A DNA stretch of 35,308 nucleotides, taken from the NCBI GenBank assembly GCA_016935565.1, contig JAFGQS010000082.1:1-35308 (forward strand), written 5' to 3'. Position 1 is the first letter of the stretch, and each line of letters starts with the position of its first letter. Origin of the DNA: Deltaproteobacteria bacterium (GTDB lineage Bacteria > Desulfobacterota > Syntrophia > Syntrophales > UBA6807). The notes beneath the pieces are model-generated. The model did not search any database. It was given only the letters and a program-made list of their open reading frames with translations, and had not been told where the DNA came from. Made by a program: the position numbers and the translations under genes. Positions 1,045 to 16,611 of the stretch are shown piece after piece.

Positions 1045-1074
1045 TTGACAACTGTCGCGATTATGATGTATAAA
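1045..1074 (+). promoter_or_regulatory. Promoter of the aroF-aroC unit
   Basis: TTGACA at 1045-1050 and TATAAA at 1069-1074 are separated by 18 bases, a good sigma70-type promoter. Transcription would begin near 1081, about 20 bases before the leader peptide ATG at 1104. This is read from the sequence only. Confidence 0.75.
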
Positions 1075-1103
1075 TCAGTCACTTTTTTACAAGGATTATT
1101 TTG

Positions 1104-1187
1104 ATGGGTAAAAATGTTACTTTAAATTGGTGGTTTAGCTATTTTTATTATAGCTCACCGGTTTACCCATCGCTTGTAAAGATGTAA
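1104..1187 (+). CDS. Aromatic leader peptide upstream of aroF (27 aa, Trp/Phe/Tyr codon run)
   Basis: A 28-codon frame starts with ATG at 1104 and ends with TAA at 1185-1187. AAGGA at 1091-1095 is a ribosome binding site 8 bases upstream. The central peptide is NWWFSYFYYSSPVY: two Trp, two Phe and three Tyr codons between 1128 and 1151, plus a further Tyr codon at 1164. In a 27-residue peptide this is far above chance, and it sits between a good promoter and two tandem T-tracted hairpins ahead of aroF, the first enzyme of the common aromatic pathway. The obvious reading is an attenuator leader whose translation reports the charging of tRNA-Trp, tRNA-Phe and tRNA-Tyr together. I know of single-amino-acid leaders (trpL, pheL); a combined W/F/Y leader on aroF is unusual. 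The function is inferred. Confidence 0.85.
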   Translation: MGKNVTLNWWFSYFYYSSPVYPSLVKM

Positions 1188-1208
1188 ATCACACTACATA
1201 AAACACTT

Positions 1209-1250
1209 AAGCCATGGGTAGATCGAAAGATGCTGCACCATGGTTTTTTT
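1209..1250 (+). terminator. First aroF leader terminator-like hairpin (segments 3:4)
   Basis: CCATGG at 1212-1217 pairs with CCATGG at 1238-1243, and seven T residues follow at 1244-1250. The core stem is only six base pairs with a 20-base loop, so it is a weaker terminator than the one that follows. Confidence 0.5.
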
Positions 1251-1258
1251 ATTTTCAG

Positions 1259-1293
1259 GCCATGGTGGCATTGATGACACCATGGCTTTTTTT
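1259..1293 (+). terminator. Second aroF leader terminator (segments 5:6)
   Basis: GCCATGGTG (1259-1267) and CACCATGGC (1278-1286) form a perfect nine-pair stem with a ten-base loop, followed by seven T residues at 1287-1293. It ends four bases before the aroF ribosome binding site, which fits an attenuator. Confidence 0.8.
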
Positions 1294-1312: not shown

Positions 1313-2341
1313 GTGATTATCGTTATGAAAAAAAGTGCAACAGAAGGTCAAATCGAAAACGTAATCAGGTGGGTTGAGTCTGTCGGTTACAAGACTCACC
1401 CGTCATTTGGTGTTGAACGGACAATCATCGGTTGCGTTGGAGATGGTCGGAACAATGAGTACCTGAAGTTTGCTGAATCTCTCTCGGGTGTTGAAAAAAC
1501 GATACCGATCCTGAAGCCCTATAAATTAGCAAGCCGTGAGGCAAAGGAAGGCAACACCATCATACGGGTGGGCACCGTTGAAATTGGTGGTCCGGACTTT
1601 GTTGTCATGGCAGGGCCCTGTTCCATCGAGAGTGAGGAACAGATGATGGAGAGTGCCTTCATCACGAAAAAGGCCGGTGCCGATATCATCAGGGGTGGTG
1701 CATTCAAGCCGAGGACATCCCCGTACAGTTTCCAGGGAATGGAAGAGAACGGCCTCAAACTCCTGAGAAGAGCGGGAGACAAAACGGGAATGCCCGTGAT
1801 TACCGAAGTAATGAATACATCCGACGTGGACCTTGTAGAGGAATATGCCGACATTCTTCAAATCGGAGCACGAAACGTTCAGAATTTCGCTCTGTTAAAA
1901 GAAGTCGGCAAGGCGAAAAAACCGGTACTTCTCAAACGAGGGATGATGACAACCATCGAGGAGCTTCTCATGTCTGCAGAATATATCATATCATCGGGAA
2001 ACCACGATGTCATACTCTGCGAACGAGGTATCCGTACCTTTGAAACGGCGACGAGGAATACCCTCGATATCAGTGCCGTACCGGTTCTGAAGGAACTGAC
2101 CCATCTTCCGATTATCGTTGACCCCAGCCACGCGGCGGGAGACTGGAAGTACGTTCCGGCTTTAACGAAGGGAGCCCTGGCTGTGGGGGCTGATGGTGTC
2201 ATGATTGAGGTTCACCCGGAACCGGAAAAGGCTGTCTCCGACGGAGCCCAGTCCCTGAGACCTGAAAGGTTCTACCAGCTCATGGAGGAAGTGAGAACCC
2301 TGGAAAAACTCATGAGGAAAGAGATGAGGTCGAAACAATGA
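1313..2341 (+). CDS. aroF: 3-deoxy-7-phosphoheptulonate (DAHP) synthase
   Basis: This enzyme condenses PEP and erythrose-4-phosphate, the first step of the shikimate pathway. The frame is open back to 1214, but that extension runs through the terminator hairpins. GTG at 1313 is chosen because GAGGAGG at 1297-1303 lies nine bases upstream and the resulting N-terminus ([18 protein letters not shown]) fits the family. The protein is 342 residues. Residues 1-65 form the small ferredoxin-like N-terminal regulatory domain seen in Thermotoga-type enzymes. The TIM barrel shows GPCSIES from residue 101, [39 protein letters not shown] and [10 protein letters not shown]. The type is the AroF/KDO8P-related type I beta family. 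It is the first gene of a tightly packed unit; its stop overlaps the aroB start as ATGA. The leader suggests joint control by Trp, Phe and Tyr supply. Confidence 0.97.
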
Positions 2342-3432
2342 AACAAATTAAATTGAATCTGGAAAGGAATGTGTCATCCTCTTATGATATTTGCATCGGA
2401 CATAACATTCTTGATCGAATAGGACTGATCATCGCAAAAAACAACGGGGCTCACCGTCACATTGTAATCGCTGATTCTACCGTATCGGCCCTCCATGGTG
2501 ATTCCTTTCTCGACATATTGAGAAAAATGAACCTGACCGCCGATCTGATCGAGTTCCCTGCAGGCGAAGCTTCCAAGAATATGGACACCATACTATCCGT
2601 GGCGAGGCAACTCATTGAACTCGGGGCAGATCGGAGCTCAGCATTGATTGCCCTTGGTGGTGGCGTCACCGGTGATATTGTCGGATTTGTGGCCTCCATC
2701 TACATGCGATCCATTCCCTATATTCAGGTTCCGACGACACTCGTTGCCCAGGTGGACAGCAGTATCGGCGGAAAGACGGGAATCGATCTGCCGGAAGGAA
2801 AAAATTTGCTCGGAACCTTTTACCAGCCGAAAGGAGTCTTCATCGATCTTCAGTTTCTGGATACCCTTCCGGACTACGAATTCAATAACGGTCTCGCAGA
2901 AATCGTTAAATACGGCATCATTGATGACGTAACATTATTCGATCTGCTGGAAAATCAAACGGAAGACATCAAGAAGCGTGACATGACGCTCATGAAGCGG
3001 ATAGTCCAACAATCATGCACCATAAAACGGGGAATTGTGGAAATTGACGAGAAGGATGTGGGAATCCGCCGAATTCTTAATTTCGGTCATACCATCGGAC
3101 ATGCCGTCGAGGCAGAGTCGGGTTATACAATCAGTCATGGAGATGCCGTCTCCGTCGGCATGATCGCAGCGGCCAGAATATGCCAGAAGCTCGACTACCT
3201 GCCGTCCGCTGATCGGAAGAGAATTGAAACTCTCATACGAGCGTTGGATCTGCTCGATCACATACCGGAATCGATCAGTACCCCGGGAATTCTCTCACGG
3301 ATTGCAACCGATAAAAAGAAAAAGGGTCATATCGTCCATTTTGTTTTGTTAAAGAGAATCGGTGTACCATTCATCAACGGTTCCGTGGCAGATAGAATCA
3401 TTCATGAAACCATCGAGGAGTTAAGGAAATGA
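2338..3432 (+). CDS. aroB: 3-dehydroquinate synthase
   Basis: Converts DAHP to 3-dehydroquinate using NAD+ and a divalent metal in the cytoplasm. At 364 residues it has the normal length. The family signature is unmistakable: [19 protein letters not shown], then [32 protein letters not shown] and [10 protein letters not shown], with the metal-binding histidines in [11 protein letters not shown] and [10 protein letters not shown]. The start overlaps the aroF stop and the stop overlaps the pheA start, both as ATGA, so translation is probably coupled across aroF-aroB-pheA. Confidence 0.98.
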
Positions 3433-4511
3433 CGCCGGCATCACTGAAAGATTTGAGAAACCGCTTGAAAAAAAAGGACGAAGCACTTGTCGGATTGCTT
3501 AACGAACGAGCTCGAATATCATTAGAAATCGGAGAAGTCAAAAAGAAGGCGGAATTAAACGTGTATGATCCCCCTCAGGAAAAAAAGATTTATCGTTACC
3601 TGAGTAAAATCAATGACGGGCCTCTTCCGGATGAATCTCTGCGAGAGATTTTCAAGGAAATCTTGTCTGCGTCACGGTCTCTCCAGATGCCTGAAATGGT
3701 AGCATTCCTGGGACCGGAAGCGTCTTTTTCCCATGCAGCGGCTCAATCTCACTTCGGAAAGAGTACCCGCTTTTCTCCTCAATCCACGATTCTCGATGTC
3801 TTTGATCAGGTCGAACGGAAACGGGTACCGTGGGGTGTTGTTCCGGTGGAAAACACTATCGAAGGAATGGTTAAATTGACCCTGGACAGGCTCATTGCCA
3901 CACCACTGAACATCATGGCTGAAATCTTTCAACCAATCACGCATTGCCTCATGTCGACGATCACCGATATGAAGGCACTGAAGCGGATCTATTCTCATCC
4001 ACAGGCTCTTGCCCAATGTCAGGAATGGACACGGAAGCATGTCCCGTTCTGTTCGCTTCATAACATTGAGAGCACAGCCGCCGCAGCTCAAAAGGCATTG
4101 AACGATGCCGAAGGAGCAGCCATCGGAAGCAGTAAAGCGGCCCTCCGGTATGGGCTGAGCATTCTCTCCGACGGCATTGAGGATTATCCATCAAATATAA
4201 CCCGGTTTCTCGTTATCGGCGAAGGGATAAACAGATCGACGGGCAGGGACAAGACGTCCATTCTTTTCGGAACCCGTCATCAGCCGGGGGCGTTGTATCG
4301 TTCACTGGAACCTTTCGCGCAAAAAGAAATCAATCTCGTTAAGATCGAATCGTATCCCATAAAGGAACGGATGTGGGAATACTTGTTTTTCGTGGATTTT
4401 GACGGGCACAGGGACGAAGAAAAAATACAGGCGTGCCTGGAAGACCTGCAAAGCCAGGCTACCTTTGTCAAAATACTCGGTTCTTATCCGAAAGGAGATA
4501 TAAAATCGTGA
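3429..4511 (+). CDS. pheA: Bifunctional chorismate mutase / prephenate dehydratase (P-protein)
   Basis: Converts chorismate to prephenate and then to phenylpyruvate for phenylalanine. Residues 1-85 are an AroQ-type chorismate mutase helix domain (LRNRLKKKDEALVGLLNERA). Residues about 93-275 are prephenate dehydratase, with VAFLGPEASFSHAAA, VPVENTIEGMV, YSHPQALAQC and the catalytic Thr-Arg-Phe in NITRFLVIG. Residues about 280-357 are an ACT domain, with PGALYRSL for effector binding. The second ACT motif reads IESYP rather than the usual IESRP. The gene sits between aroB and aroD, so it draws chorismate made by genes downstream in the same unit. Its stop overlaps the aroD start. Confidence 0.97.
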   Translation: MTPASLKDLRNRLKKKDEALVGLLNERARISLEIGEVKKKAELNVYDPPQEKKIYRYLSKINDGPLPDESLREIFKEILSASRSLQMPEMVAFLGPEASFSHAAAQSHFGKSTRFSPQSTILDVFDQVERKRVPWGVVPVENTIEGMVKLTLDRLIATPLNIMAEIFQPITHCLMSTITDMKALKRIYSHPQALAQCQEWTRKHVPFCSLHNIESTAAAAQKALNDAEGAAIGSSKAALRYGLSILSDGIEDYPSNITRFLVIGEGINRSTGRDKTSILFGTRHQPGALYRSLEPFAQKEINLVKIESYPIKERMWEYLFFVDFDGHRDEEKIQACLEDLQSQATFVKILGSYPKGDIKS

Positions 4512-5191
4512 TTTGTGTTCCCGTTGTTGCCACAACGAATGAAGATGCAGTGAATCAGATGGAACGCTGCTTCCCCTTGGCTGATGTTGTGGAGTTGAGA
4601 ATCGACGTCATCAAACAGGTAGAGCTGAAAGACCTGCTCGTCCATCAGAAGGACAGGATCATGGTCACCAACAGAAAGAAAGAGGAAGGGGGAAAGTTCG
4701 CCGGCAAAGAAACGGAGAGGATCGAGTTGTTGAATGACGCCGTCACCCTGGGAGCGGGTTTTGTTGATGTTGAATTAAGGACAGGTGATGATCTCAGGGA
4801 AATGCTGTCAGATAATATATTGCACCATCAAGGACGATCACAATTGATTCTCTCCCACCACATTTTCGACGGAACGCCTTCATATAGTGAACTGCAGGAC
4901 ATTTTTCACGAATGTGTCGCCAAGGGTGCCCGTATCGTCAAGATCGTCACCTTTGCCAACGCAGTGGAAGATACCCTGAATATCCTGAAACTGATCGGTT
5001 ATGCAAAGAAGATAAATCAGAAAATAATCGCTCATTGTATGGGGAAAAAGGGGAAGATCAGCAGGATTATGGCGCCCTTTTTCGGTGCATACATGAGCTT
5101 CGCCTCCCTTGATAAGGGGTTAGAATCAGCTCCGGGGCAACTGACGGTTTCCGAGATGAAAGACTTTCTCAGGATCTTAAAAGATGAATAG
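4508..5191 (+). CDS. aroD: 3-dehydroquinate dehydratase, type I
   Basis: Dehydrates 3-dehydroquinate to 3-dehydroshikimate by a Schiff-base mechanism. The start is GTG at 4508, overlapping the pheA stop as GTGA, with AAGGAG at 4492-4497 as ribosome binding site. A longer open frame from 4433 lies inside pheA and is not used. The protein is 227 residues, typical for type I. Visible motifs are VVELRIDVIK, IMVTNRKKEEGG, FVDVEL, the catalytic His in SHHIF (H118), the Schiff-base Lys in RIVKIVTF (K145), IAHCMGKKGKISRI and the C-terminal SAPGQLTV. Its end overlaps aroE by eight bases. Confidence 0.96.
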   Translation: MICVPVVATTNEDAVNQMERCFPLADVVELRIDVIKQVELKDLLVHQKDRIMVTNRKKEEGGKFAGKETERIELLNDAVTLGAGFVDVELRTGDDLREMLSDNILHHQGRSQLILSHHIFDGTPSYSELQDIFHECVAKGARIVKIVTFANAVEDTLNILKLIGYAKKINQKIIAHCMGKKGKISRIMAPFFGAYMSFASLDKGLESAPGQLTVSEMKDFLRILKDE

Positions 5192-6002
5192 TGAACAACA
5201 GCTTTTCGCCCTTTTCGGCAATCCGGTACAACACAGTCTTTCTCCGCTCATGCATAACGCGGTGTTCGATACATTGAAACTGGATGCCCGCTATATCGCA
5301 CTGCGCGTGGAAAACGCGCGGGATATCATTGTGCACATGAGAAGGATGAACATCACGGGAGCGAGCATAACGATTCCCCACAAGACTGCACTTATGAAGT
5401 ATCTGGATGAATTTACCGACAGTTCCCGGCGGATCGGTGCGGTCAACACGGTCGTTCATTCCGACGGCACGATGAAAGGAGACAATACCGATTGGATCGG
5501 CTTGACATGCGCTCTCCGGGAATCACTTACTATTACAGGGAAAACGTTTGCTATCCTCGGTGCTGGAGGTGCCGCACGGGCGGTTGTCTTCGGCATTCTG
5601 GAAGAAGGGGGAACTTCCGTCATCTTCAACAGAACGACACGAAAGGGAGAGATGATGGCACGGGAATTCGGGTGTGAATTTCACCCGATGGAAGACATCG
5701 GGAAAATCTCCGCTGACTGCCTGATCAATACGACACCTGTGGGTTTGAGCCCGGACGCTGAACGATCAACGGTGAGCAAAGACATCCTTCCGAATTTCGC
5801 ATGGGTCATGGATATCATATACAACCCTTTGAAAACAAAACTTTTACAGGACGCGGAAGAATCGGGATGTTCGATCATCTCGGGTCTTTCAATGTTTGTT
5901 CACCAGGGGGCGGAACAGCTGAAAATCTGGATGAATGTACAGCCTCCCCTTGATTTCATGAAAAAAGTCATACTGGAAAAATTGAGAAATGAAGGCAGTT
6001 AA
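5184..6002 (+). CDS. aroE: Shikimate dehydrogenase (NADP+)
   Basis: Reduces 3-dehydroshikimate to shikimate with NADPH. The 272-residue protein begins with the substrate-binding motif LFGNPVQHSLSPLMHN, then ITIPHK with the catalytic Lys (K67), GAVNTV and GDNTDWIG with the catalytic Asp (D103). A Rossmann fold follows, with ILGAGGAARAV and FNRTTRKG, the latter typical of NADP preference. The C-terminus has the conserved SGLSMFVHQGAEQ. It overlaps aroD by eight bases and aroA by 14 bases, consistent with one polycistronic message. Confidence 0.97.
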   Translation: MNSEQQLFALFGNPVQHSLSPLMHNAVFDTLKLDARYIALRVENARDIIVHMRRMNITGASITIPHKTALMKYLDEFTDSSRRIGAVNTVVHSDGTMKGDNTDWIGLTCALRESLTITGKTFAILGAGGAARAVVFGILEEGGTSVIFNRTTRKGEMMAREFGCEFHPMEDIGKISADCLINTTPVGLSPDAERSTVSKDILPNFAWVMDIIYNPLKTKLLQDAEESGCSIISGLSMFVHQGAEQLKIWMNVQPPLDFMKKVILEKLRNEGS

Positions 6003-7254
6003 ACGAATACAAAATCTTGATGCAACGGTACAGGTACCGGGTTCGAAGAGTTATACTCAGCGGGCTCTTATTATTGCGTCACTGGCGGAAGGAAAGTCTT
6101 TCTTACGCAATCCTCTGATTGCAGAGGACACACAATACCTCATCGAGGCCCTCAGTGCACTCGGAACACGGATCGTGGTTGCCGAAAATGACATTATCGT
6201 AACAGAAACTGCCGGAAAGATAAAGAATCCGGGGAAAAAGTTGTTTCTCGGAAACAATGGCACCGCTATGAGATTTCTCACAACACTTGTTTCTCTCGGC
6301 AAGGGTGAATTTATTATCGACGGGAACAGTCGACTGCAGGAAAGACCGATACAGCCGCTCCTCGATGCACTGAGGACACTGGGCGTTGACTGCGGAAGTA
6401 TTGATGGAAATGGCAGACTGCCTGTTACGATCAGGGGCGGTGGCATCGATGGCGGAAAGGTCATATTTACCGATACGGAAAGCAGCCAGTATATCTCCTC
6501 CATTCTGATCGCTTCTCCCCATGCACGAAGCGATGTGGATATTCAACTTCGAGGACACACGGTCTCAAGACCTTATATCGATATGACGATTGATGTCATG
6601 AACCATTTCGGTGTGGAAGTAACACGAAAAGGACCAAATGGGTACACGGTGAAAGCTCCCCAGAAATATACGGGACAGCGATACCTGATCGAAGGTGACG
6701 CATCGAGTGCTTCCTATTTCTTTGTAGCCGCCGCGATCTGCAAGGGAAGGATCAGAATCGAAAATATGAATCCGAATACCATTCAGGGGGATATTGACTT
6801 CCTGAAGCTGTTGGAAACCGTGGGGTGTGACGTTGACCGGAGAAATGACGGTATAACGGTTACCGGCGGTGAACTGCATCGAGGCGACCTGGAGTTTGAT
6901 ATGGCAAACATGCCCGATATGGTCCCCTCACTGGCCATCCTGTCGGCCTTCAGACCGGGACAGACGGTAATTAAAAATGTGTCCCATCTGCGATTGAAGG
7001 AAAGTAATCGGCTTGAGGCACTGGTCACCGAATTAAACAGAATCGGTATCGATGCTAAAGAACTGTCAGACGGACTGGTCATCAACGAAGGGACTCCTCA
7101 CGGCGCTGATATCGAAACATACGACGATCACCGGATCGCCATGAGTTTTGCTGTTGCTGGACTCGCAACGGAAGGAATAAGAATCAAGAACCAGGGGTGT
7201 GTTAAAAAATCATTCCCGGGATTCTGGAATGAATTGGACAGGTTGCTCACATGA
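5989..7254 (+). CDS. aroA: 3-phosphoshikimate 1-carboxyvinyltransferase (EPSP synthase)
   Basis: Joins PEP to shikimate-3-phosphate to form EPSP. At 421 residues it has the usual length. Motifs include VPGSKSYTQRALIIASLAEG near the N-terminus (K20), LFLGNNGTAMRFL for PEP binding, LQERPIQPLLDALRTLG, SSQYISSIL, YLIEGDASSASYFF, LRLKESNRLEAL and TYDDHRIAMSFAVAGL. The two-domain pseudo-repeat order is normal. It overlaps aroE upstream and aroK downstream (ATGA at 7251). Confidence 0.98.
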   Translation: MKAVKRIQNLDATVQVPGSKSYTQRALIIASLAEGKSFLRNPLIAEDTQYLIEALSALGTRIVVAENDIIVTETAGKIKNPGKKLFLGNNGTAMRFLTTLVSLGKGEFIIDGNSRLQERPIQPLLDALRTLGVDCGSIDGNGRLPVTIRGGGIDGGKVIFTDTESSQYISSILIASPHARSDVDIQLRGHTVSRPYIDMTIDVMNHFGVEVTRKGPNGYTVKAPQKYTGQRYLIEGDASSASYFFVAAAICKGRIRIENMNPNTIQGDIDFLKLLETVGCDVDRRNDGITVTGGELHRGDLEFDMANMPDMVPSLAILSAFRPGQTVIKNVSHLRLKESNRLEALVTELNRIGIDAKELSDGLVINEGTPHGADIETYDDHRIAMSFAVAGLATEGIRIKNQGCVKKSFPGFWNELDRLLT

Positions 7255-7784
7255 AAAACATTGTTCTCCTGGGATACCGCTGTACCGGTAAATCATCGGC
7301 AGGAATGAAAATCGCCGAACGGCTCCGTATGCGTTTTTTCGATACGGATCATCTCATCGTCGAACAGTCCCGCATGTCGATCGGGGAATTGGTGAACGAA
7401 GGCGGGTGGAGCCTGTTTCGACGGAAGGAAAAAAACGTTATCAGAAAACTCGCTTCAACAGTCGGAAGTGTCATCGCAACGGGAGGTGGTGCATTTGAAG
7501 ATCCCGAAAACAGAGAACATTTAAAAAGAAACGGCCTTTTTATCTGGCTGCACGCCGATGCAAAAACCGTTATACGACGAATGGAGTCGGATCAAAAGAG
7601 CGCCCATCAGCGCCCTTCCCTCTCCGCCGACGACGTGTATACCGAGGTTGTAACGACCATGGGGAAAAGAGAGCCGGAATACCGACGAATTGCTGATTTT
7701 ACCATCGATACGTCGACAAAGAGCATTGAATCGGTAGTTGATGAAATTTGCACTTTTGTAGAAAACAGTAATAAAAAAGACTGA
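7251..7784 (+). CDS. aroK: Shikimate kinase
   Basis: Phosphorylates shikimate at the 3-hydroxyl with ATP. The 177-residue P-loop kinase starts with LLGYRCTGKSSAG, a Walker A motif with Cys where Gly is more common. It continues with FFDTDHLIVEQ (shikimate-binding Asp), ATGGGAF and the lid region QRPSL with its conserved Arg. It comes after aroA although it acts before it in the pathway. Its start overlaps the aroA stop as ATGA, and aroC begins 11 bases downstream. Confidence 0.95.
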   Translation: MKNIVLLGYRCTGKSSAGMKIAERLRMRFFDTDHLIVEQSRMSIGELVNEGGWSLFRRKEKNVIRKLASTVGSVIATGGGAFEDPENREHLKRNGLFIWLHADAKTVIRRMESDQKSAHQRPSLSADDVYTEVVTTMGKREPEYRRIADFTIDTSTKSIESVVDEICTFVENSNKKD

Positions 7785-7795
7785 AGGAAAGGGAC

Positions 7796-8851
7796 ATGTC
7801 AGGAAACACAACGGGAAAAGTCTTTACGGTAACCACGTGGGGAGAATCACACGGCGGGGCTATCGGTGTGGTGGTGGACGGGTGTCCTCCCAATATTTCT
7901 CTGAGCGAACATGACATACAGGAAGACCTGGACAAAAGGAGACCGGGACACAGTCCGTCGGCCTCTCCCAGAACGGAAGAAGACAGAGTAGAAATTCTCT
8001 CGGGGATATTTGACGGAAAGACGACAGGAACACCGATTTCTTTGATTATCAAAAACAAAGATGTCAGAAGTTCCGACTATGATGAGATCAAGGATCTCTT
8101 CAGACCCGGACATGGAGATTTTACCTATCAAAAGAAATACGGCATTCGCGATCATCGGGGAGGAGGTCGCGCATCGGGCCGGGAGACCGCTGCCCGTGTC
8201 GCCGCCGGCTCCATCGCGAAAAAGGTGATAAACCGTGAAGGTATAACCGTTACCGCCTTCACGCACGAATTAGGCGGCATTGTCGCCGAGAACATCACCA
8301 TGGCGGACATGAACAGAAACCGATTACAGTGCCCCGATATGAAGGCTGCCGAGAAGATGGAAGAGAAGCTGCAGGAAGCGCGGGAAAACGGGGATTCTCT
8401 GGGAGGAATCGTGGGGATTATTGTCCGGGGATGCCCCCCGGGGCTGGGAGAGCCGGTATTCGATAAGATCGACGCCGATCTGGCCAAAGCACTCATGAGC
8501 ATCGGCACCGTCAAGGGTATCGAAATCGGTTCCGGATTCGGGTCATCGCAGATGCCGGGATCGGAATGTAACGACCAGATAACACCGGAAGGATTTATGA
8601 CAAACAATGCAGGAGGAATACTGGCGGGAATTACCAACGGTGATGACATCATCATCAGAATCGCCTGCAAACCCATTTCATCCATTGAAAAATCTCAGCA
8701 GACCATTGATAGCGGGGGAAATCCACGGACGATTTCGATCACGGGAAGACACGATGTGTGCGTTATACCCCGCATCATTCCCGTGTGCGAGGCCATGGTC
8801 ACTATCGTTCTTGCCGATCATCTCTTACGATACAGGGCTATCCGCACATAA
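7796..8851 (+). CDS. aroC: Chorismate synthase
   Basis: Converts EPSP to chorismate with reduced FMN, the branch point to Trp, Phe and Tyr. The 351-residue protein shows FTVTTWGESHGGAIG, VDGCPPNISLSE, RRPGHSPSASPRTEEDRVEILSG (residues about 44-67), YGIRDHRGGGRASGRETAAR and GSGFGSSQMPGSECND. AAGGAAAGG just upstream is the ribosome binding site. It ends only seven bases before the trp promoter -35 element and no terminator is visible between them, so some aro transcripts could read into the trp leader. Confidence 0.98.
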   Translation: MSGNTTGKVFTVTTWGESHGGAIGVVVDGCPPNISLSEHDIQEDLDKRRPGHSPSASPRTEEDRVEILSGIFDGKTTGTPISLIIKNKDVRSSDYDEIKDLFRPGHGDFTYQKKYGIRDHRGGGRASGRETAARVAAGSIAKKVINREGITVTAFTHELGGIVAENITMADMNRNRLQCPDMKAAEKMEEKLQEARENGDSLGGIVGIIVRGCPPGLGEPVFDKIDADLAKALMSIGTVKGIEIGSGFGSSQMPGSECNDQITPEGFMTNNAGGILAGITNGDDIIIRIACKPISSIEKSQQTIDSGGNPRTISITGRHDVCVIPRIIPVCEAMVTIVLADHLLRYRAIRT

Positions 8852-8886: not shown

Positions 8887-8914
8887 GGTCACACTTACGA
8901 TAGTGGGAAGAGAT

Positions 8915-8989
8915 ATGAATCGGATAACATTACAGATAAATAGCTGGTGGTGGTGGAACAATCACAGGGGGAGGTTTGTCCATCGCTAA
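8915..8989 (+). CDS. trpL: trp leader peptide (24 aa, four consecutive Trp codons)
   Basis: ATG at 8915 opens a 24-codon frame ending in TAA at 8987-8989. A GGAAGAG-like site lies a few bases upstream. Codons 11-14 are four TGG in a row (8945-8956), giving the peptide core INSWWWWNNHRGR. The frame lies between a promoter and two tandem T-tracted hairpins ahead of trpE, so it fits a ribosome-mediated trp attenuator. Trp codons lie inside pairing segment 1, as in the enterobacterial system. Confidence 0.92.
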   Translation: MNRITLQINSWWWWNNHRGRFVHR

Positions 8990-9017
8990 CGTCACAGAAT
9001 AAATAAATCGAGCACGA

Positions 9018-9054
9018 GCCGTGGAGAATCTCCTTGAATCTCCACGGCTTTTTT
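9018..9054 (+). terminator. trp attenuator terminator 1
   Basis: GCCGTGGAGA (9018-9027) and TCTCCACGGC (9039-9048) form a perfect ten-pair stem with an 11-base loop, followed by six T residues. It is a textbook intrinsic terminator. Confidence 0.92.
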
Positions 9055-9082
9055 GTTGTTCCATCATCGTATTACAGAAACA

Positions 9083-9108
9083 GGCCGTGATAACCCGCGG
9101 CCTTTTTT
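9083..9108 (+). terminator. trp attenuator terminator 2
   Basis: GGCCGTG (9083-9089) and CGCGGCC (9096-9102) pair with one G-U, with a six-base loop and six T residues at 9103-9108. It lies 27 bases before trpE and backs up the first terminator. Confidence 0.75.
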
Positions 9109-9135
9109 ATTTTAAAGAACAGAGGTAGCAAGACC

Positions 9136-10632
9136 ATGTACAACCCGTCATTTGAAACATTTACACAGCGAGCGAAAGAAGGAAATCTGATCCCTGTCTA
9201 CAAGGAAATTCTGGCTGACACGGAAACACCGGTAACGGCACTCATGAAGCTCCGTTCCAAATCGTACGCCTTTCTCCTGGAGAGCGTGGAAGGCGGCGAA
9301 AAATGGGGGCGGTATACGTTTCTCGGGTCCGATCCAACCACAATTATGAGAATCAAAGGAGACGACATTGTAATCAAAGATAATGGAGAGACCCATCGCT
9401 ATAAACATGGTGGAGATCCCCTTAAACATTTGAAAAATCTGTTGGAGCGGTATCGGCCTGTTCCGGCAGAGGGTCTTCCCCGATTTTACGGTGGTGCGGT
9501 GGGATTTCTCGGCTACGATATGGTCCATTATTTTGAGAGGCTCCCCGACACGACGACCGATGATCTCGACACCGATGATGCAACCTTTCTCATTACCGAC
9601 ACCCTCATGATCTTTGACAACGTACGGCAGACCATCAAAGTCGTGGCCTGCGTTTCAACCGAAGGCAGTGACAATCTCCGTACGCTCTATGATGAAGGTG
9701 TCAAAAAGATCGATGACATGACAGCGATGCTGCAAAGACCCATTGAAAGCACGGAGGGGGCATACACAGGGGAAACCGACGTTTCGCTTCAATCCAACAT
9801 GACGCCGGATGATTTCAAGGCTATCGTGCAGAAAGCCAAGGACTATATCGTCGCAGGCGATATCATCCAGGTTGTTCTCTCACAGCGGTTTGAGCGGTTC
9901 AATGATATGGACCCCGTCGACCTGTACCGGGCACTTCGGTATGTCAATCCCTCACCCTATCTCTTTTATCTGAAGCTCAACGATCTGATCCTGATAGGAT
10001 CATCTCCGGAAGTCATGGTCCGGCAGGAAGAGGGAATTGTTGAATTACGACCCATTGCAGGAACGAGGAAACGGGGAACAAACGAGCAGGAAGACCGTGA
10101 TCTCGCCAATGAACTGCTCAATGACCCCAAAGAAAAGGCCGAGCATATCATGCTGGTAGATCTGGGAAGAAACGATCTGGGGAGAATTGCACGGATCGGC
10201 AGTGTTCAGGTGAATCAAATGATGGTTGTGGAGCGGTATTCCCATGTCATGCACCTCGTCTCCAATGTTCAGGCACACCTGGCTCATGACAAGGATTGCT
10301 TCGATGTTCTGAAAGCAACCTTCCCGGCAGGGACTCTCTCGGGAGCTCCGAAGATCAGGGCGATGGAAATCGTTGATGAACTTGAAATTTCCCGGAGAGG
10401 TCCTTACGGCGGGGCTGTCGGTTACTTCAGTTATTCGGGAAACATGGATTTCGGTATTACCATCCGGACGATGATCGTCAAGAACGGAAAGATCTACATA
10501 CAGGCCGGAGCGGGCATCGTTGCGGATTCCGACCCCGACATGGAATATAAAGAAACCGTTAATAAAGCGGCAGGAATGATGCAGGCCATCAAGCTTGCCG
10601 CATCCAAATTTAAAATACACAACAGAGTTTAG
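9136..10632 (+). CDS. trpE: Anthranilate synthase component I
   Basis: Makes anthranilate from chorismate using ammonia delivered by TrpG. The 498-residue protein has the N-terminal regulatory part with SYAFLLESVEGG, containing the LLES element of the Trp feedback site. The chorismate-binding domain carries GDIIQVVLSQRF, NPSPYLFYL, IGSSPEVMV, RPIAGTRKRG, AEHIMLVDLGRNDLGR, THE-like TFPAGTLSGAPKIRAME and IQAGAGIVADSDP. It contains a single Trp residue. It is the first structural gene after the attenuator; trpG follows after 14 bases. Confidence 0.97.
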   Translation: MYNPSFETFTQRAKEGNLIPVYKEILADTETPVTALMKLRSKSYAFLLESVEGGEKWGRYTFLGSDPTTIMRIKGDDIVIKDNGETHRYKHGGDPLKHLKNLLERYRPVPAEGLPRFYGGAVGFLGYDMVHYFERLPDTTTDDLDTDDATFLITDTLMIFDNVRQTIKVVACVSTEGSDNLRTLYDEGVKKIDDMTAMLQRPIESTEGAYTGETDVSLQSNMTPDDFKAIVQKAKDYIVAGDIIQVVLSQRFERFNDMDPVDLYRALRYVNPSPYLFYLKLNDLILIGSSPEVMVRQEEGIVELRPIAGTRKRGTNEQEDRDLANELLNDPKEKAEHIMLVDLGRNDLGRIARIGSVQVNQMMVVERYSHVMHLVSNVQAHLAHDKDCFDVLKATFPAGTLSGAPKIRAMEIVDELEISRRGPYGGAVGYFSYSGNMDFGITIRTMIVKNGKIYIQAGAGIVADSDPDMEYKETVNKAAGMMQAIKLAASKFKIHNRV

Positions 10633-10646
10633 AAGGAGGAAAAAAT

Positions 10647-11231
10647 ATGATTTTAATGATCGATAACTACGATTCCTTTACCTACAATCTCGTCCAGTAT
10701 TGCGGCCAGCTTGGAGAAGAGGTTGTCGTTCATCGAAATGACGAAATTTCAATCGAACAGATACGGAGCTTACAACCGGATGCCATTCTCCTCTCTCCCG
10801 GCCCCCGGACACCCCGGGAGGCGGGCATTACGGTAGACATTATCAGGCATTTCCATACAACAATCCCCATTCTCGGGATCTGCCTGGGTCATCAGGCTAT
10901 CGGATATGCCTTTGGTGCCGATGTCGTCAAGGCCGACAGAATAATGCACGGCAAAACCTCCGGCATTATCAATGACGGAAAATGCATTTACAGAGGATTA
11001 CCGAACCCGTTCCAGGCAGGCCGTTATCATTCCCTGATTCTGAAAAGGAGTTCCCTTCCCGACTGTTTAAAAGTAACCGCCGAAACGGAAGATGGGGAAG
11101 TTATGGGCATCAGGCATGAAAAATATCCCGTGGAGGGAATCCAGTTTCATCCTGAATCGGTTTTGACCCCGAACGGAAAGCGAATAATCAGGAACTTTAT
11201 GGCCATCGCCATCGGTTCTTCCAACAACTAA
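10647..11231 (+). CDS. trpG: Anthranilate synthase component II (glutamine amidotransferase)
   Basis: Hydrolyses glutamine and channels ammonia to TrpE. At 194 residues it is a stand-alone class I amidotransferase. MIDNYDSFTYNLVQY is the typical start, and the triad is Cys in GICLGHQ (C79) with His and Glu in FHPES (H168, E170). AAGGAGGA just upstream is a strong ribosome binding site. Such subunits can also serve PabB in folate synthesis; the position between trpE and trpD argues for the Trp role at least. No Trp residues are present. Confidence 0.96.
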   Translation: MILMIDNYDSFTYNLVQYCGQLGEEVVVHRNDEISIEQIRSLQPDAILLSPGPRTPREAGITVDIIRHFHTTIPILGICLGHQAIGYAFGADVVKADRIMHGKTSGIINDGKCIYRGLPNPFQAGRYHSLILKRSSLPDCLKVTAETEDGEVMGIRHEKYPVEGIQFHPESVLTPNGKRIIRNFMAIAIGSSNN

Positions 11232-11249
11232 TGAAAGGAGTTTTTTATC

Positions 11250-12260
11250 ATGATCAGAGAAGCAATTGACAAGGTTGTACACAAAAAAAATCTGAAAGAA
11301 TCGGAAATGATGAATGTAATGGATGCCGTAATGGAAGGAAAGGCAACACCGGCACAGATCGCGTCTTTCATTACGGCATTAAGAATGAAGGGCGAAACAG
11401 TGGAAGAAGTCAGCGGAGCGGCACGTATCATGAGACAGAAAGCCACGAGGATTGATGCCCGCTCGTCCGTTATTGTTGACACCTGCGGAACCGGGGGAGA
11501 CGGCATGAACACCTTCAACATATCGACGACGGCGGCATTCGTTGTGGCAGCTGCGAATATAACAGTTGCCAAACACGGCAACCGCGCCGTTTCCAGCGGT
11601 TGCGGCAGTGCCGATGTCCTGGAGGCACTGGGAGTCAATATCACCGTAGGTCCTGAAATTGTTGAAGAATGTATCCATGAAATCGGCATCGGTTTTCTCT
11701 TCGCTCCCAGACTCCACGGTGCCATGAAACATGCCATTGGTCCGAGAAGAGAAATCGGAATCAGAACAATATTTAACATGCTGGGACCCCTGACAAATCC
11801 TGCCGGTGCGACATCTCAGCTCATCGGTGTCTACGATCCCCGTTTGACGGAAATGTTCACCGGTGTCCTGCAAAATCTGGGAACGAAGAGAGCCTTTGTG
11901 GTGCACGGTTCTGATGGCCTTGATGAAGCAACGGTTACGGGAGAAACGCGGGTCTCGGAACTGAAAGACGGCCTGGTTACGACTTATAACATCGATCCCA
12001 TTGACTTTTTCGGAGAAACATGCCGTGGCGATGATCTCCTCGGCAAGGATGCAACGGTCAACGCACAGATCACCAAGGATATCCTGACAGGAAAGGATGG
12101 TGCCTGCCGAAAGATCGTTCTGTTGAATGCTGCCCTTGCCATCGTGGCGGGAGAAAAGGCAGACTCGATACGGGAAGGCATTGCCGTCGCGGAAGACTGC
12201 ATTGACAGCGGGAAAGCCATCAAAAAACTGCAGTCCCTGATAGAAATGAGCAATAGTTGA
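11250..12260 (+). CDS. trpD: Anthranilate phosphoribosyltransferase
   Basis: Transfers phosphoribose from PRPP to anthranilate. The 336-residue protein has the family signature [20 protein letters not shown], then [55 protein letters not shown] and [17 protein letters not shown] lies upstream of the ATG. It is separate from trpG, unlike the fused enterobacterial form. No Trp residue is present. Confidence 0.98.
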
Positions 12261-12269
12261 AGCGGAACG

Positions 12270-13058
12270 ATGATTTTAGAAACGATCGTAGAAAATAAAA
12301 AACGAGAAATCAGGCGACTGAAGGAAGAGCGGCCCCTTCCTGTCCTGAAAGCATCTCTTGGAAGTATTGCTCCTCCACGTGATTTTAAAACGGCTCTGAC
12401 CGGCCGGGACTGTTCCATTATCGCCGAGGTGAAGATGCGTTCACCGTCAAAAGGATTGATCAGGGAAGACTTCGATCCTGTCGGCATTTCCTCACTGTAT
12501 GAAAAAAAGGGTGCGGCGGCTATCTCGGTTCTCACGGACGAACAATTCTTCGGGGGTAAAAGCTCATACCTGACGGATATTAAAAGAGCCGTGGGCATCC
12601 CGGTGCTGCGGAAGGACTTTATTATCGATCCTTATCAAATTTACGAAACGAAAAGCCTGGGAGGAGATGCCGTTCTCCTGATCACGCGGATCCTTGATGA
12701 AACTATGCTCGTCCACTGCATTAACCTGGCAGAATCTCTCGGCCTTTCACCTCTCGTGGAGGTCCACTCCCGCGGAGACCTTGATAAAGCTGCTGCCGCA
12801 GGTGCCGGTATCATCGGGATCAACAATCGAAACCTGCAGACCTTTGCTACGGATTTGCGGAACAGCCTCGATCTGGCACCCTTTATCCCGGAAAATACGG
12901 TCGTCGTGAGCGAAAGCGGCATCCGGACGAGAGACGATATCGAAATCTTAATGAAGGAAGGGGTCCATGCTTTTCTCGTGGGTGAAGCGCTCATGAAGGC
13001 TGAGGATGTGGGTGCGAAACTGGAGGAACTTCTGGGAAAAGGCGGAGAAAAACAGTGA
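12270..13058 (+). CDS. trpC: Indole-3-glycerol phosphate synthase
   Basis: Closes the indole ring from CdRP with loss of CO2 and water. The 262-residue TIM barrel begins with ILETIVENKKREI and shows IIAEVKMRSPSKG (catalytic Lys and Glu region), AISVLTDEQFFGG, VLRKDFIID, GINNRNLQTF and VVSESGIRT. It is a monofunctional form, not fused to trpF. It begins nine bases after trpD and overlaps trpF as GTGA. It has no Trp residue. Confidence 0.97.
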   Translation: MILETIVENKKREIRRLKEERPLPVLKASLGSIAPPRDFKTALTGRDCSIIAEVKMRSPSKGLIREDFDPVGISSLYEKKGAAAISVLTDEQFFGGKSSYLTDIKRAVGIPVLRKDFIIDPYQIYETKSLGGDAVLLITRILDETMLVHCINLAESLGLSPLVEVHSRGDLDKAAAAGAGIIGINNRNLQTFATDLRNSLDLAPFIPENTVVVSESGIRTRDDIEILMKEGVHAFLVGEALMKAEDVGAKLEELLGKGGEKQ

Positions 13059-13714
13059 CTGAAATCAAGATCTGTGGAATTACCAATCGGAAAGACGCTT
13101 TTGCGGCAGTCGAGAGCGGCGTCGATGCACTGGGGTTTATCTTTTACAAAAAGAGTCCCCGGTATGTATCACCGGAAAAAGTAAAAGAGTTTATCGAAGG
13201 GCTCCCTCATACCGTGACGAAAGTCGGCGTTTTCGTCAATCACGACGCCTCTGAAGTCAAAACAATATTTGATTTCTGCCGTCTCGATCTGCTCCAGCTT
13301 CACGGTAACGAGTCACCCGATTACTGCAGTGATTTTCCGGCATCTGTCCTTATCAAGGCACTATCACCGAAACCGGGAGATGACTTCGAACTATTATCAC
13401 ACTATCCCGTCAAAGCTTTTCTTGTTGACACGTATGACTCCGAGCGCTACGGAGGAACCGGCAGGACATCAAACTGGGAATTGGCAGCAAAACTCTCGGC
13501 GATACATCATCTTATCCTCTCCGGTGGTTTGATGAAAGACAACATCCGTGAAGCAATCGCAACGGTGTCACCGTTGGCCGTCGATGTCAACAGCGGTGTG
13601 GAGGTATCACCGGGAAAGAAAGATCACCACAAGATCAGAGAGATTGTGGATATTATACGACGGACGGATAGTCGTCCCGATACAAACTATACGGGCATTT
13701 TTACACGGGAGTAA
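13055..13714 (+). CDS. trpF: Phosphoribosylanthranilate isomerase
   Basis: Isomerises PRA to CdRP. The GTG start at 13055 overlaps the trpC stop. The 219-residue barrel starts with TEIKICGITN, the conserved catalytic Cys motif, and continues with ALGFIFYKKSPRYVSPE, VGVFVNHD, LLQLHGNESPDYC, FLVDTY with the catalytic Asp, YGGTGRTSNW, LSGGL and VDVNSGVEVSPGKKDH. It contains one Trp. Confidence 0.95.
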   Translation: MTEIKICGITNRKDAFAAVESGVDALGFIFYKKSPRYVSPEKVKEFIEGLPHTVTKVGVFVNHDASEVKTIFDFCRLDLLQLHGNESPDYCSDFPASVLIKALSPKPGDDFELLSHYPVKAFLVDTYDSERYGGTGRTSNWELAAKLSAIHHLILSGGLMKDNIREAIATVSPLAVDVNSGVEVSPGKKDHHKIREIVDIIRRTDSRPDTNYTGIFTRE

Positions 13715-13761
13715 GGTGCCTTGAAGGAATGTAACATATTTTAAACATGAAACGTTTCCTC

Positions 13762-13790
13762 GTTGAATTTCCCCGGAGGATGGATTCAAC
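13762..13790 (+). repeat. Inverted repeat in the trpF-trpB spacer
   Basis: GTTGAAT (13762-13768) and ATTCAAC (13784-13790) can form a seven-pair hairpin in the 107-base spacer, the longest gap inside the trp unit. There is no T-tract, so it is not a terminator; it may affect message processing. The sequence around it shows no promoter I trust. Confidence 0.4.
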
Positions 13791-13821
13791 AGGGTAAACT
13801 TGAAACTGAAAAGGTGAAACA

Positions 13822-15015
13822 ATGAACGCACGATTACCCGATAAAAACGGACATTTCGGAATTTTCGGGGGCCGGTATGCAGCGGAAACGCTCATGCCAG
13901 CTCTCATCGAACTGGAACATGCCTATGCCGAAGCGAAGAAGGATAAAGCCTTCACGAAAGAGTTCAATCGTTACCTTCAGGAATACTCGGGAAGAGAGAC
14001 ACCGCTCTATTTTGCAGAGCGTCTCACGAAAAAGCTGGGAGGTGCCAAAATCTACCTGAAACGGGAAGATCTCAATCATACGGGTTCACACAAGATCAAT
14101 AACACGCTGGGGCAGGCCCTCCTCGCCAGGCGGATGGGCAAGAAGCGTGTTATCGCAGAGACGGGTGCGGGCCAGCACGGTGTGGCCACGGCGACCGTTG
14201 CAGCCCTCTTCGGGATGGAATGCGAGATATTCATGGGTGCGGAAGATATAAAGCGACAGGCACCCAATGTCTTTCGTATGAAAATCCTCGGCGCTCAGGT
14301 AACGTCGGTTACAAGTGGAACGGACACGCTGAAGGATGCCATGAATGAGGCTATGCGACACTGGGTTTCACGGGTGAGAGATACCTTTTATGTTATCGGC
14401 ACGACGGCAGGTCCCCACCCCTACCCCGCCATGGTCAGGAATTTTCAGAGTGTCATTGGCAAGGAAACGAAACGACAGATCCTGAAAAAGGAGGGAAGGC
14501 TCCCCGATGTTCTCATTGCCTGTATCGGTGGAGGGAGCAATGCCATGGGACTCTTTTACCCTTTCAAGGATAATCATGACATTACCATGATCGGTGTCGA
14601 AGCCGGGGGTAAGGGGATTGCGACGGGAATGCACGCTGCAAGTATATCGGCAGGAAATATCGGAGTCCTCCACGGTAACAAGACCTATCTGCTCCAGGAT
14701 GAACACGGCCAGATCAAAGACGCCTACTCCATAGCGGCGGGACTTGATTACCCGGGCGTCGGACCGGAACATGGCTACTTTCAGTCAACGGGGAGAGCCC
14801 GATATGTAACCGTTGATGACGCGGAAGCCACTGAAGCCTTTCTCTGCCTTTCCGAGTACGAGGGCATTATTCCGGCCATGGAAAGCGCCCATGCAGTGGC
14901 ATATACCATGAAACTGGCACCAACGCTGTGCAAAGATAAAATTATTGTTATCAATCTCTCCGGCAGGGGTGACAAGGATGCGGGCATCATCGCGGAAAAA
15001 TTGGAGGTTCACTGA
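13822..15015 (+). CDS. trpB: Tryptophan synthase beta subunit
   Basis: Joins indole and serine with PLP. The 397-residue protein is of the TrpB1 type, with [30 protein letters not shown] holding the PLP Lys (K91; Ser where Ala is usual before HK), [33 protein letters not shown] and the C-terminal LSGRGDKD. It pairs with trpA, which starts two bases downstream. An AAGGTGAAAC stretch is the likely ribosome binding site. It contains one Trp. Confidence 0.98.
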
Positions 15016-15017
15016 TA

Positions 15018-15818
15018 ATGCGACGAATTCAGAAGAAGTTCAATGACCTGAAAAAAAGGGGTGATAAGGCCCTGGTTGCGTATCTGACGGCAGGAGATCC
15101 CAGTCTGGAAATGACGAAGGAACTTATCATGGACCTCGATGAGGCCGGTGTTGATATCCTTGAAATCGGTGTCCCCTTTTCCGATCCGACTGCGGATGGA
15201 CCGACGATCCAGGCCGCTTCGCAGAGATCTCTGCAAAGAGGAACAACACTGTCCGCCATTCTTCATATGCTCGAAACGGCGAGGAAGTTCACCGAGATAC
15301 CGATCGTTCTGTTCGGTTACTACAACCCCATATTTATTTACGGCACGGAGCAATTCGCGAAACAGGCAAAAAAATCAGGTGTTGACGGAATTCTGGTTGT
15401 TGACCTCCCCCCCGAAGAGTCTCGAGAGCTGAGACAATACACTGATCGAGCCGAGATCGATTTTATTTCACTCATCGCTCCGACAACATCATCCGAACGA
15501 ATCGGAAAGATCTCTCGGAATGCCACGGGATTTCTCTATTATGTTTCAATAACCGGTGTGACGGGAACGCAGAAGCCCGTGGTTTCCGACATCAAAAAAG
15601 AAATGAAAAGGATACGAGAGCAAACGACAATGCCTGTCGTTGTCGGTTTCGGCATATCAACACCACAGCAAGCGGCAGAAATTGCTCCCTATGCCGACGG
15701 AGTTGTCATCGGAAGCGCCTTTGTCCGACTGATTGAGGAACACGGAGACAAAAATAACTTCGTGAATATCATATGTTCTTATGCTAAGGATATCAAGATA
15801 TCTCTACGGAACAGGTGA
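15018..15818 (+). CDS. trpA: Tryptophan synthase alpha subunit
   Basis: Cleaves indole-3-glycerol phosphate and passes indole to TrpB. The 266-residue TIM barrel shows [30 protein letters not shown] with the catalytic residues at E49 and D60 (the same numbers as in Salmonella), [44 protein letters not shown] and VVGFGIS. No Trp residue is present. Confidence 0.98.
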
Positions 15819-15855
15819 GGGGTTACTACGGGATAAATACCAGGAGTTATGAGCG

Positions 15856-16611
15856 GTGAAAAAGTTTGAGATAGGCATTATTGGCGGCACCGGCGGCATC
15901 GGCAACTGGTTTGCCGATTTTTTCACAAAAGAAGGGTATACCGTTCATGTATCGGGAAGACGGACCGGTATGGGTGTGAAGCAGATGGCCGAACAATGCC
16001 GGGTGGTAATCGTCAGCGTTCCGATCGGCGTTACCGGTGAGGTAATTGAGCAGGTCGGACCATGCATGAAAGAGGAATCGCTTTTAATGGATTTTACCTC
16101 GCTGAAAGAAAAGCCGGTTCAAGCAATGTTGCGGCACTCGGTATCGGAGGTCATGGGATGTCACCCCCTCTTCGGCCCCGACATTGATTCAATCGATGGT
16201 CACAATATAGTTTTCTGCCCGGGAAGAATGAAAAAGTGGTCCCGGTGGCCGAAAGATCTGTTTGAAAAAAAGGGAGCCCATACCATCGAAATGACACCTG
16301 AGAACCATGACGAGATGATGGCCATCATTCAGGGATTGAATCATTTCAATACAATTATGATGGAACTTGCCCTCAGAGGTACCGGCGTTGACCGTTCCGA
16401 ACTGAAAAACTGTTCAACGCCGATCTTCGATACAAAGCTCGGCATCATCGATAAAATATGCACCACCGACCCACGTCTCCATGCGGAAATTCTTACCCTC
16501 AATCCGTATTTGAACACGATACTTGACCTGTATGAAAAAAATCTGACCGATCTGAAACGCCTGATCAAAAGTGGAAACACTGAGGGTTTGATAAAGCTCA
16601 TCAAAAAATAA
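15856..16611 (+). CDS. tyrA: Prephenate dehydrogenase
   Basis: Oxidatively decarboxylates prephenate towards tyrosine. GTG at 15856 is the start, nine bases after AGGAG at 15842-15846. The 251-residue protein has a dinucleotide-binding start, IGIIGGTGGIGNWFADFF, then VIVSVPIGVT, LMDFTSLKEKPVQAM, MGCHPLFGPD with the catalytic His, and a helical C-terminal domain with GLNHFN. It is monofunctional, with no chorismate mutase or ACT domain. A use of arogenate instead of prephenate cannot be excluded. Only 37 bases separate it from trpA, so it probably belongs to the trp transcription unit. Confidence 0.93.
   Translation: MKKFEIGIIGGTGGIGNWFADFFTKEGYTVHVSGRRTGMGVKQMAEQCRVVIVSVPIGVTGEVIEQVGPCMKEESLLMDFTSLKEKPVQAMLRHSVSEVMGCHPLFGPDIDSIDGHNIVFCPGRMKKWSRWPKDLFEKKGAHTIEMTPENHDEMMAIIQGLNHFNTIMMELALRGTGVDRSELKNCSTPIFDTKLGIIDKICTTDPRLHAEILTLNPYLNTILDLYEKNLTDLKRLIKSGNTEGLIKLIKK

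Follow-up and report, generated by a model that had tools for sequence, protein, structure and literature searches.

How the common first step of a branched pathway can be tuned to several end products is a question raised by a locus in the genome of a deltaproteobacterium of the Syntrophales (lineage UBA6807; GenBank assembly GCA_016935565.1, a draft in 196 contigs), in which the DAHP synthase gene aroF is preceded by a short open reading frame with Trp, Phe and Tyr codons in a single run. The stretch analysed, referred to here as the window, comprises positions 1 to 35,308 of contig JAFGQS010000082.1, and a first-pass annotation made from its letters had proposed that the leader feeds an attenuator. 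Our reading, to which we give a probability of roughly 0.87, is that the aroF leader is a ribosome-mediated transcription attenuator which integrates the charging of tRNA-Trp, tRNA-Phe and tRNA-Tyr; regulation in the cell is something we infer from sequence comparison and computed folding.

The aromatic gene cluster and its leader peptide

The aroF gene (1313-2341, forward strand; TIGR01361 above cut-off) starts with GTG behind the ribosome binding site GAGGAGG (1297-1303). An in-frame upstream extension to 1214 was taken as accidental, as it runs through both of the terminators described below. On the same strand follow aroB, pheA, aroD, aroE, aroA, aroK and aroC (2338-8851) and then trpE, G, D, C, F, B, A and tyrA (9136-16611); from aroF to tyrA, 16 genes thus run in one direction and make up the common pathway and all three of its branches. 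This complete aromatic supraoperon had been overlooked in the first-pass annotation, as had a second leader peptide within it, which is taken up below with the other copies of the RNA frame.

The leader ORF (1104-1187, forward strand; ATG at 1104, stop at 1187) encodes 27 amino acids, MGKNVTLNWWFSYFYYSSPVYPSLVKM, and rereading confirmed the peptide first described, with WWFSYFYY and another Tyr: the control codons W W F S Y F Y Y are leader codons 9-16 (1128-1151, forward strand) and the extra Tyr is codon 21, beyond this block. The ribosome binding site and promoter that had been claimed for it are also present, the former as AAGGA (1091-1095, forward strand) and the latter as a candidate read from the sequence (1045-1074, forward strand), with TTGACA at 1045-1050, an 18-nt spacer and TATAAA at 1069-1074. 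No site was reported at 1045-1074 by a strict promoter scan, because the scan requires T at the last -10 position. Upstream of the leader in relatives, promoter-like elements matching at least 5/6 positions at -35 and at least 4/6 at -10 were found in 43 of 96 cases, compared with 9.0 expected from shuffles.

Alternative structures of the leader RNA

The leader RNA can be divided into six segments, all on the forward strand, most of which have two possible partners. Segment 1 (1103-1112) includes the start codon and pairs with segment 2 (1159-1171), the latter being bound to segment 1 in the OFF state or to segment 3 in the ON state. Segment 3 (1211-1225) is at once the alternative partner of segment 2 and the 5' arm of terminator 1 (3:4; 1211-1250, U-tract 1244-1250), the 3' arm of which, together with the start of the U-tract, is segment 4 (1233-1246). 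Segment 4 is in turn the alternative partner of segment 5 (1257-1269), which forms the 5' arm of terminator 2 (5:6; 1259-1293, U-tract 1287-1293) and pairs with the 3' arm, segment 6 (1278-1286), in the OFF state or with segment 4 in the ON state. Segments 3, 4, 5 and 6 resemble one another because their CCATGG core is a palindrome.

Both pairings proposed in the first-pass annotation hold at the level of bases. The stem 1102-1112/1162-1172 consists of 10 standard pairs (1103-1112 with 1162-1171) and, as seen by eye, a U-G wobble between 1102 and 1172, and the alternative 12-bp pairing of 1159-1170 with 1214-1225 consists of 12 standard pairs including G-U (11 checked, the last by eye). What had escaped attention is that the target of this alternative pairing is the 5' arm of terminator 1, and that a similar terminator 2 comes next. 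The minimum free energy of the aroF leader region is -70.1, as against a mean of -42.7 for shuffled sequences (z -7.0). No Rfam family matched in the window at the gathering threshold, and the hits for 1030-1330 up to an E value of 10 included no amino acid leader or T-box family.

These structures suggest the following mechanism. With all three tRNAs charged, the ribosome would reach the stop codon and cover segment 2, or 1:2 would re-form; segment 2 being unavailable, terminator 1 and then terminator 2 would form and transcription would stop before aroF. Were any one of the three tRNAs short, the ribosome would stall within the aromatic block, its leading edge stopping just 5' of segment 2, which could then capture segment 3 and prevent terminator 1, and segment 4, once freed, could pair with segment 5 to the exclusion of terminator 2. 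The logic of such three-aromatic sensing would be that of an OR gate.

Conservation of the leader and its spacing

AroF loci were sampled from public genomes and from the order to which the genome of the window belongs. A leader ORF lies upstream of aroF in 97 of 100 order-level regions; the genomes of regions L192, L204 and L212, where no leader ORF was found, each have a covariance-model match close to a copy of aroF. Codons for Trp, Phe and Tyr occur together in 99 of 108 non-redundant aroF leaders (near-duplicates removed; a few picks, e.g., L053, are doubtful), whilst eight have no Trp and one has no Phe. The score by which ORFs in relatives were selected favours aromatic clusters and so accounts for part of their aromatic content, but for neither the mixing of three residues nor the spacing. 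When 14,460 ORFs of 15-45 aa from both strands of 100 related regions were taken as background, W+F+Y clusters of like density were found in 63 counted aroF leaders and only eight other ORFs. As such clusters are rare in the background and the leader is conserved throughout the order, the cluster is, judged by this comparison, not due to chance. Among order-level regions, Trp codons in the aroF leader do not go along with whether the cluster includes trp genes.

The order of the aromatic residues varies among relatives, as does the distance from the start codon to the block in aroF leaders; what is fixed is the distance from the block to segment 2. Aromatic density, by number of codons upstream of segment 2, is 0.58-0.94 at positions 3-11, 0.29 at position 12 and at most 0.12 elsewhere. 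In each of the 69 aligned leaders (69/69) a gap of 9, 12 or 15 nt separates the last aromatic codon from segment 2, and the stop codons of these leaders fall 18-30 nt past the start of segment 2. A fixed spacing between the codon block and segment 2 is what a sensor of ribosome position requires.

The sequence AGGAGG (Arg-Arg codons) is common right before the leader stop codon in the relatives of alignment A1 and is absent in the window; it may serve to keep a terminating ribosome over segment 2.

Covariation of the paired segments

Covariation was assessed in alignment A1, which holds 58 sequences. The OFF structure (1:2, 3:4, 5:6) is paired in 89.3% of cells, as against 28-45% in slid controls, and 16 of its 28 pairs have changes on both sides, a figure reached by none of 500 shuffles; the compensatory changes that the first-pass annotation had wished to see are thus present. 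The ON structure (2:3, 4:5) is paired in 91.7% of cells (29-44% when slid). Its variation is mostly one-sided, through G-U, as would be expected if every segment must retain two partners, and its count of double-change pairs, matched by 64 of 500 shuffles, is not exceptional. When partners were taken from other genomes, the cognate segments outpaired the swapped ones for 1:2, 2:3, 3:4, 4:5 and 5:6, and no cognate advantage was found for unrelated control segment pairs, although the z values of this test overstate certainty, since related sequences are not independent. The five chained helices are supported by this covariation. The leader frame, the aromatic codons and the stems, on whose conservation the proposal had been made to depend beforehand, were all found to be conserved among order-level relatives.

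Folding with a ribosome and probable control of the second terminator

Folding was computed with a model ribosome that keeps the RNA on its 5' and 3' sides apart and whose footprint ends 12 nt after the first base of the A-site codon. In the window, the probability of terminator 1 is 1.00 without a ribosome and 0.98-1.00 with a ribosome at codon 16 or later, and falls to 0.25 or below with the ribosome at codons 9-15. It had been claimed that all stall codons of the block leave segment 2 just clear of the ribosome footprint; in the computed structures codons 9-15 indeed free segment 2 and melt terminator 1 and positions from codon 16 onward do not, which places Tyr16 at the edge. Codons 4-8, ahead of the aromatic block, also lower terminator 1 (0.16-0.27), and the folding therefore marks the downstream edge of the block, not its upstream edge. 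Averaged over 69 relatives, the same scan brings terminator 1 down only to 0.53-0.61 when the ribosome stands 5-9 codons upstream of segment 2, and gives 0.99 with the ribosome downstream of it. The dependence of terminator 1 on ribosome position, as predicted by this model, can be stated with confidence.

The second terminator requires more caution. A stalled ribosome does not keep it from forming in the full-length window RNA at equilibrium (P about 0.9), and in the window 4:5 and 5:6 have the same energy (-15.7 each), so that control of terminator 2 would have to be kinetic, or else leaky. The persistence of terminator 2 at equilibrium is what would be seen in a classical attenuator in which terminator 1 alone is regulated, terminator 2 being weak or a back-up, such as a duplicated terminator 1, and the 4:5 complementarity a by-product of the CCATGG repeat. 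The palindromic core, which makes segments 3 to 6 alike, is in keeping with such an arrangement, as are the value for the 4:5 core and U-tract alone, which is only z -1.8, and the finding that in 20 Phe-leader copies described below 4:5 pairing is possible but without covariation (z -0.5). In the aroF leaders, however, the bases outside the core do co-vary between segments 4 and 5, as when GCUA in one is matched by UAGC in the other (z -4.0, as against 0.3 for the control pair 3:6), and 4:5 is on average more stable than 5:6, the means over 67 relatives being -19.5 kcal/mol for the 4:5 hairpin and -15.3 kcal/mol for terminator 2, with a barrier of about 12. Moreover, a strong and unregulated terminator 2 would presumably cap expression permanently. 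We consider regulation of terminator 1 alone to be possible but doubtful, and a cascade in which the stalled ribosome would disarm both terminators, for which covariation and energetics argue, to be the likelier of the two readings.

Copies of the RNA frame before other genes

The second leader peptide of the window, MNRITLQINSWWWWNNHRGRFVHR (8915-8989, forward strand), lies between aroC and trpE and has a block of Trp codons only (WWWW). It is followed by tandem terminator hairpins (9018-9110, forward strand; stems 9018-9048 and 9083-9102, each with a U-tract after it), and covariance model R1 matches this region before trpE at 8898-9107. A Trp-rich leader, the ORF being chosen for Trp, precedes trpE in all 12 of the surveyed clusters that contain this gene. 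In equilibrium folding of the trpE leader, terminator 1 always formed with no dependence on ribosome position, and an antiterminator was not identified. The Rfam trpB motif was considered for this leader and set aside, at 22.8 bits against a cut-off of 59.

A covariance model built from the aroF-leader alignment has matches in 145 of 155 genomes of the class and in 158 of 297 genomes drawn from the phylum, counts which include copies before other genes and weaker matches that were not all inspected. In the source genome, a Phe-only leader, MVNSRFSRFGSFFAFFSFFGEVCLLSS, precedes a gene for a periplasmic binding protein (Peripla_BP_6; L253, G000:C16:56951-57123, minus strand), and the 21 binding-protein copies across related genomes have four to eight Phe codons and no Trp, which suggests, on the strength of codon content, a Phe-linked transporter. 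Also in this genome are a Phe/Tyr leader, MSMTAISTADSYFCFFRRVCLLCS, before an acyl-CoA ligase gene (L254, G000:C193:48451-48630, minus strand), runs of Ala codons before an alanine-type transaminase-like gene (L295, G000:C75:5165-5300), a Val-rich leader (VVNVVVVVAAG) before an acetolactate synthase-like gene (L297, G000:C176:24010-24143) and, as a weak match, a Leu-rich leader before a 2-oxoacid oxidoreductase-like gene. The Ala-codon runs recur before alanine-transaminase-like genes in L276, L282 and L283, which like L295 have a related two-terminator frame. Outside the class, W/F/Y or F/Y leaders are found before aroF and before the gene for an unrelated entry enzyme, ADTH synthase, and in other members of the phylum before AroA'-type genes. 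The same frame with three or four Trp codons also precedes the gene for a Phenol_MetA_deg family protein (PF13557) in L258, L259, L261 and L277.

That block and gene match on a single frame is the strongest evidence for the sensing of codon identity. The integration of three tRNAs, as first suggested for the aroF leader, would follow from its codon content, and the copies with only Phe, Trp, Ala or Val codons strengthen it. Dense aromatic runs might instead act as a general slow-translation or nascent-chain stalling element which does not sense tRNA charging, in the manner of TnaC, for which stalling by free Trp is mentioned in PMC8429421, but the runs carried by copies of this frame (Phe, Trp, Ala or Val/Leu/Ile) change with the downstream gene and the order of residues varies, as one would expect of codon reading rather than of a specific stalling peptide; we therefore hold such an element to be very improbable. 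That the leader ORF is a functional small hydrophobic protein, with hairpins that just end another transcript, is hardly credible despite its conserved length and conserved C-terminal V-C-P motif, as the aromatic residues vary in order, the V-C-P codons form part of segment 2, where they are nearly invariant as nucleotides and paired to segments 1 and 3, the codon block changes with the downstream gene, and the gene at the window start, 5' of the leader, is read on the minus strand, so that no upstream transcript needs the terminators.

Returning to codon reading by a ribosome-position sensor, we lean towards the view that these copies belong to a phylum-wide modular attenuator family with a common RNA frame, whose codon block is swapped to suit each downstream gene and whose domino of five mutually exclusive helices would let one stalled ribosome disarm two tandem terminators. 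On this view two copies are nested in the aromatic supraoperon, one at its entrance that senses any of the three amino acids and one ahead of the trp branch that senses Trp alone. A single RNA appears to solve the tuning of the entry step by reading three tRNAs, with a Trp-only RNA gating the trp branch of the same operon. Copies of the frame that differ in their block (Phe, Trp, Ala or Val) provide natural matched comparisons for the study of attenuator evolution, and leader codons could suggest the substrates of uncharacterised transporters and enzymes.

Comparison with known attenuators

The aroF leader has the attributes of the trp/his type: a short leader ORF, with a ribosome binding site, upstream of the operon, control codons that correspond to the operon's amino acid products, an intrinsic terminator and an antiterminator that are mutually exclusive and, in computed folding only, a choice between the two that is decided by the position of the stalled ribosome. 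The first-pass annotation held that known leaders usually read one amino acid, which is broadly right, but there are exceptions. In enterobacteria, the ilvGMEDA and thr leaders each read several amino acids made by their operon; these are the branched-chain amino acids, or Thr and Ile, and not the aromatic ones, unlike in the aroF leader. A leader for all three aromatic amino acids was not found in the open-access literature searched, and an earlier description elsewhere is possible; nor was anything found there on an aromatic leader attenuator in Deltaproteobacteria, and the papers listed by a search on tandem terminators did not contain that phrase.

The trpL and pheL leaders of E. coli likewise have a leader peptide, a terminator and a competing antiterminator (PMC11802643), but read one amino acid with four segments and one terminator, unlike the aroF leader. 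For the aroA'-...-trp supraoperon of Desulfovibrio vulgaris, an attenuator has been predicted upstream (PMC1173090); there too the host is a delta-proteobacterium and the operon an aromatic supraoperon, but the prediction, unlike the present one, described neither a leader peptide nor its codons. A further exception to the one-amino-acid rule is the aroR leader of aroF in C. glutamicum, a leader peptide with the aromatic codons Phe-Tyr-Phe before a DAHP synthase gene, which acts by attenuation and for which a response to Phe, but none to Tyr, has been reported (PMC4046766, PMC11802643). Unlike the leader in the window it has no Trp, the two being compared by description, and its response calls for caution here, as codons that are present need not all be sensed.

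In structure, the likeness is to the his leader of E. coli and Salmonella, in which, of segments A-F, the pairings AB, CD and EF stop transcription and BC and DE permit read-through (PMC10989985). The topology is shared, with 1:2, 3:4 and 5:6 set against 2:3 and 4:5, but in the his leader only EF is described with a U-run, whereas in the aroF leader U-tracts follow both 3:4 and 5:6, and the his leader reads one amino acid where the aroF leader carries codons for three. The nearest known systems in the literature searched are the aroR leader of C. glutamicum, its closest functional relative, and the six-segment his leader.
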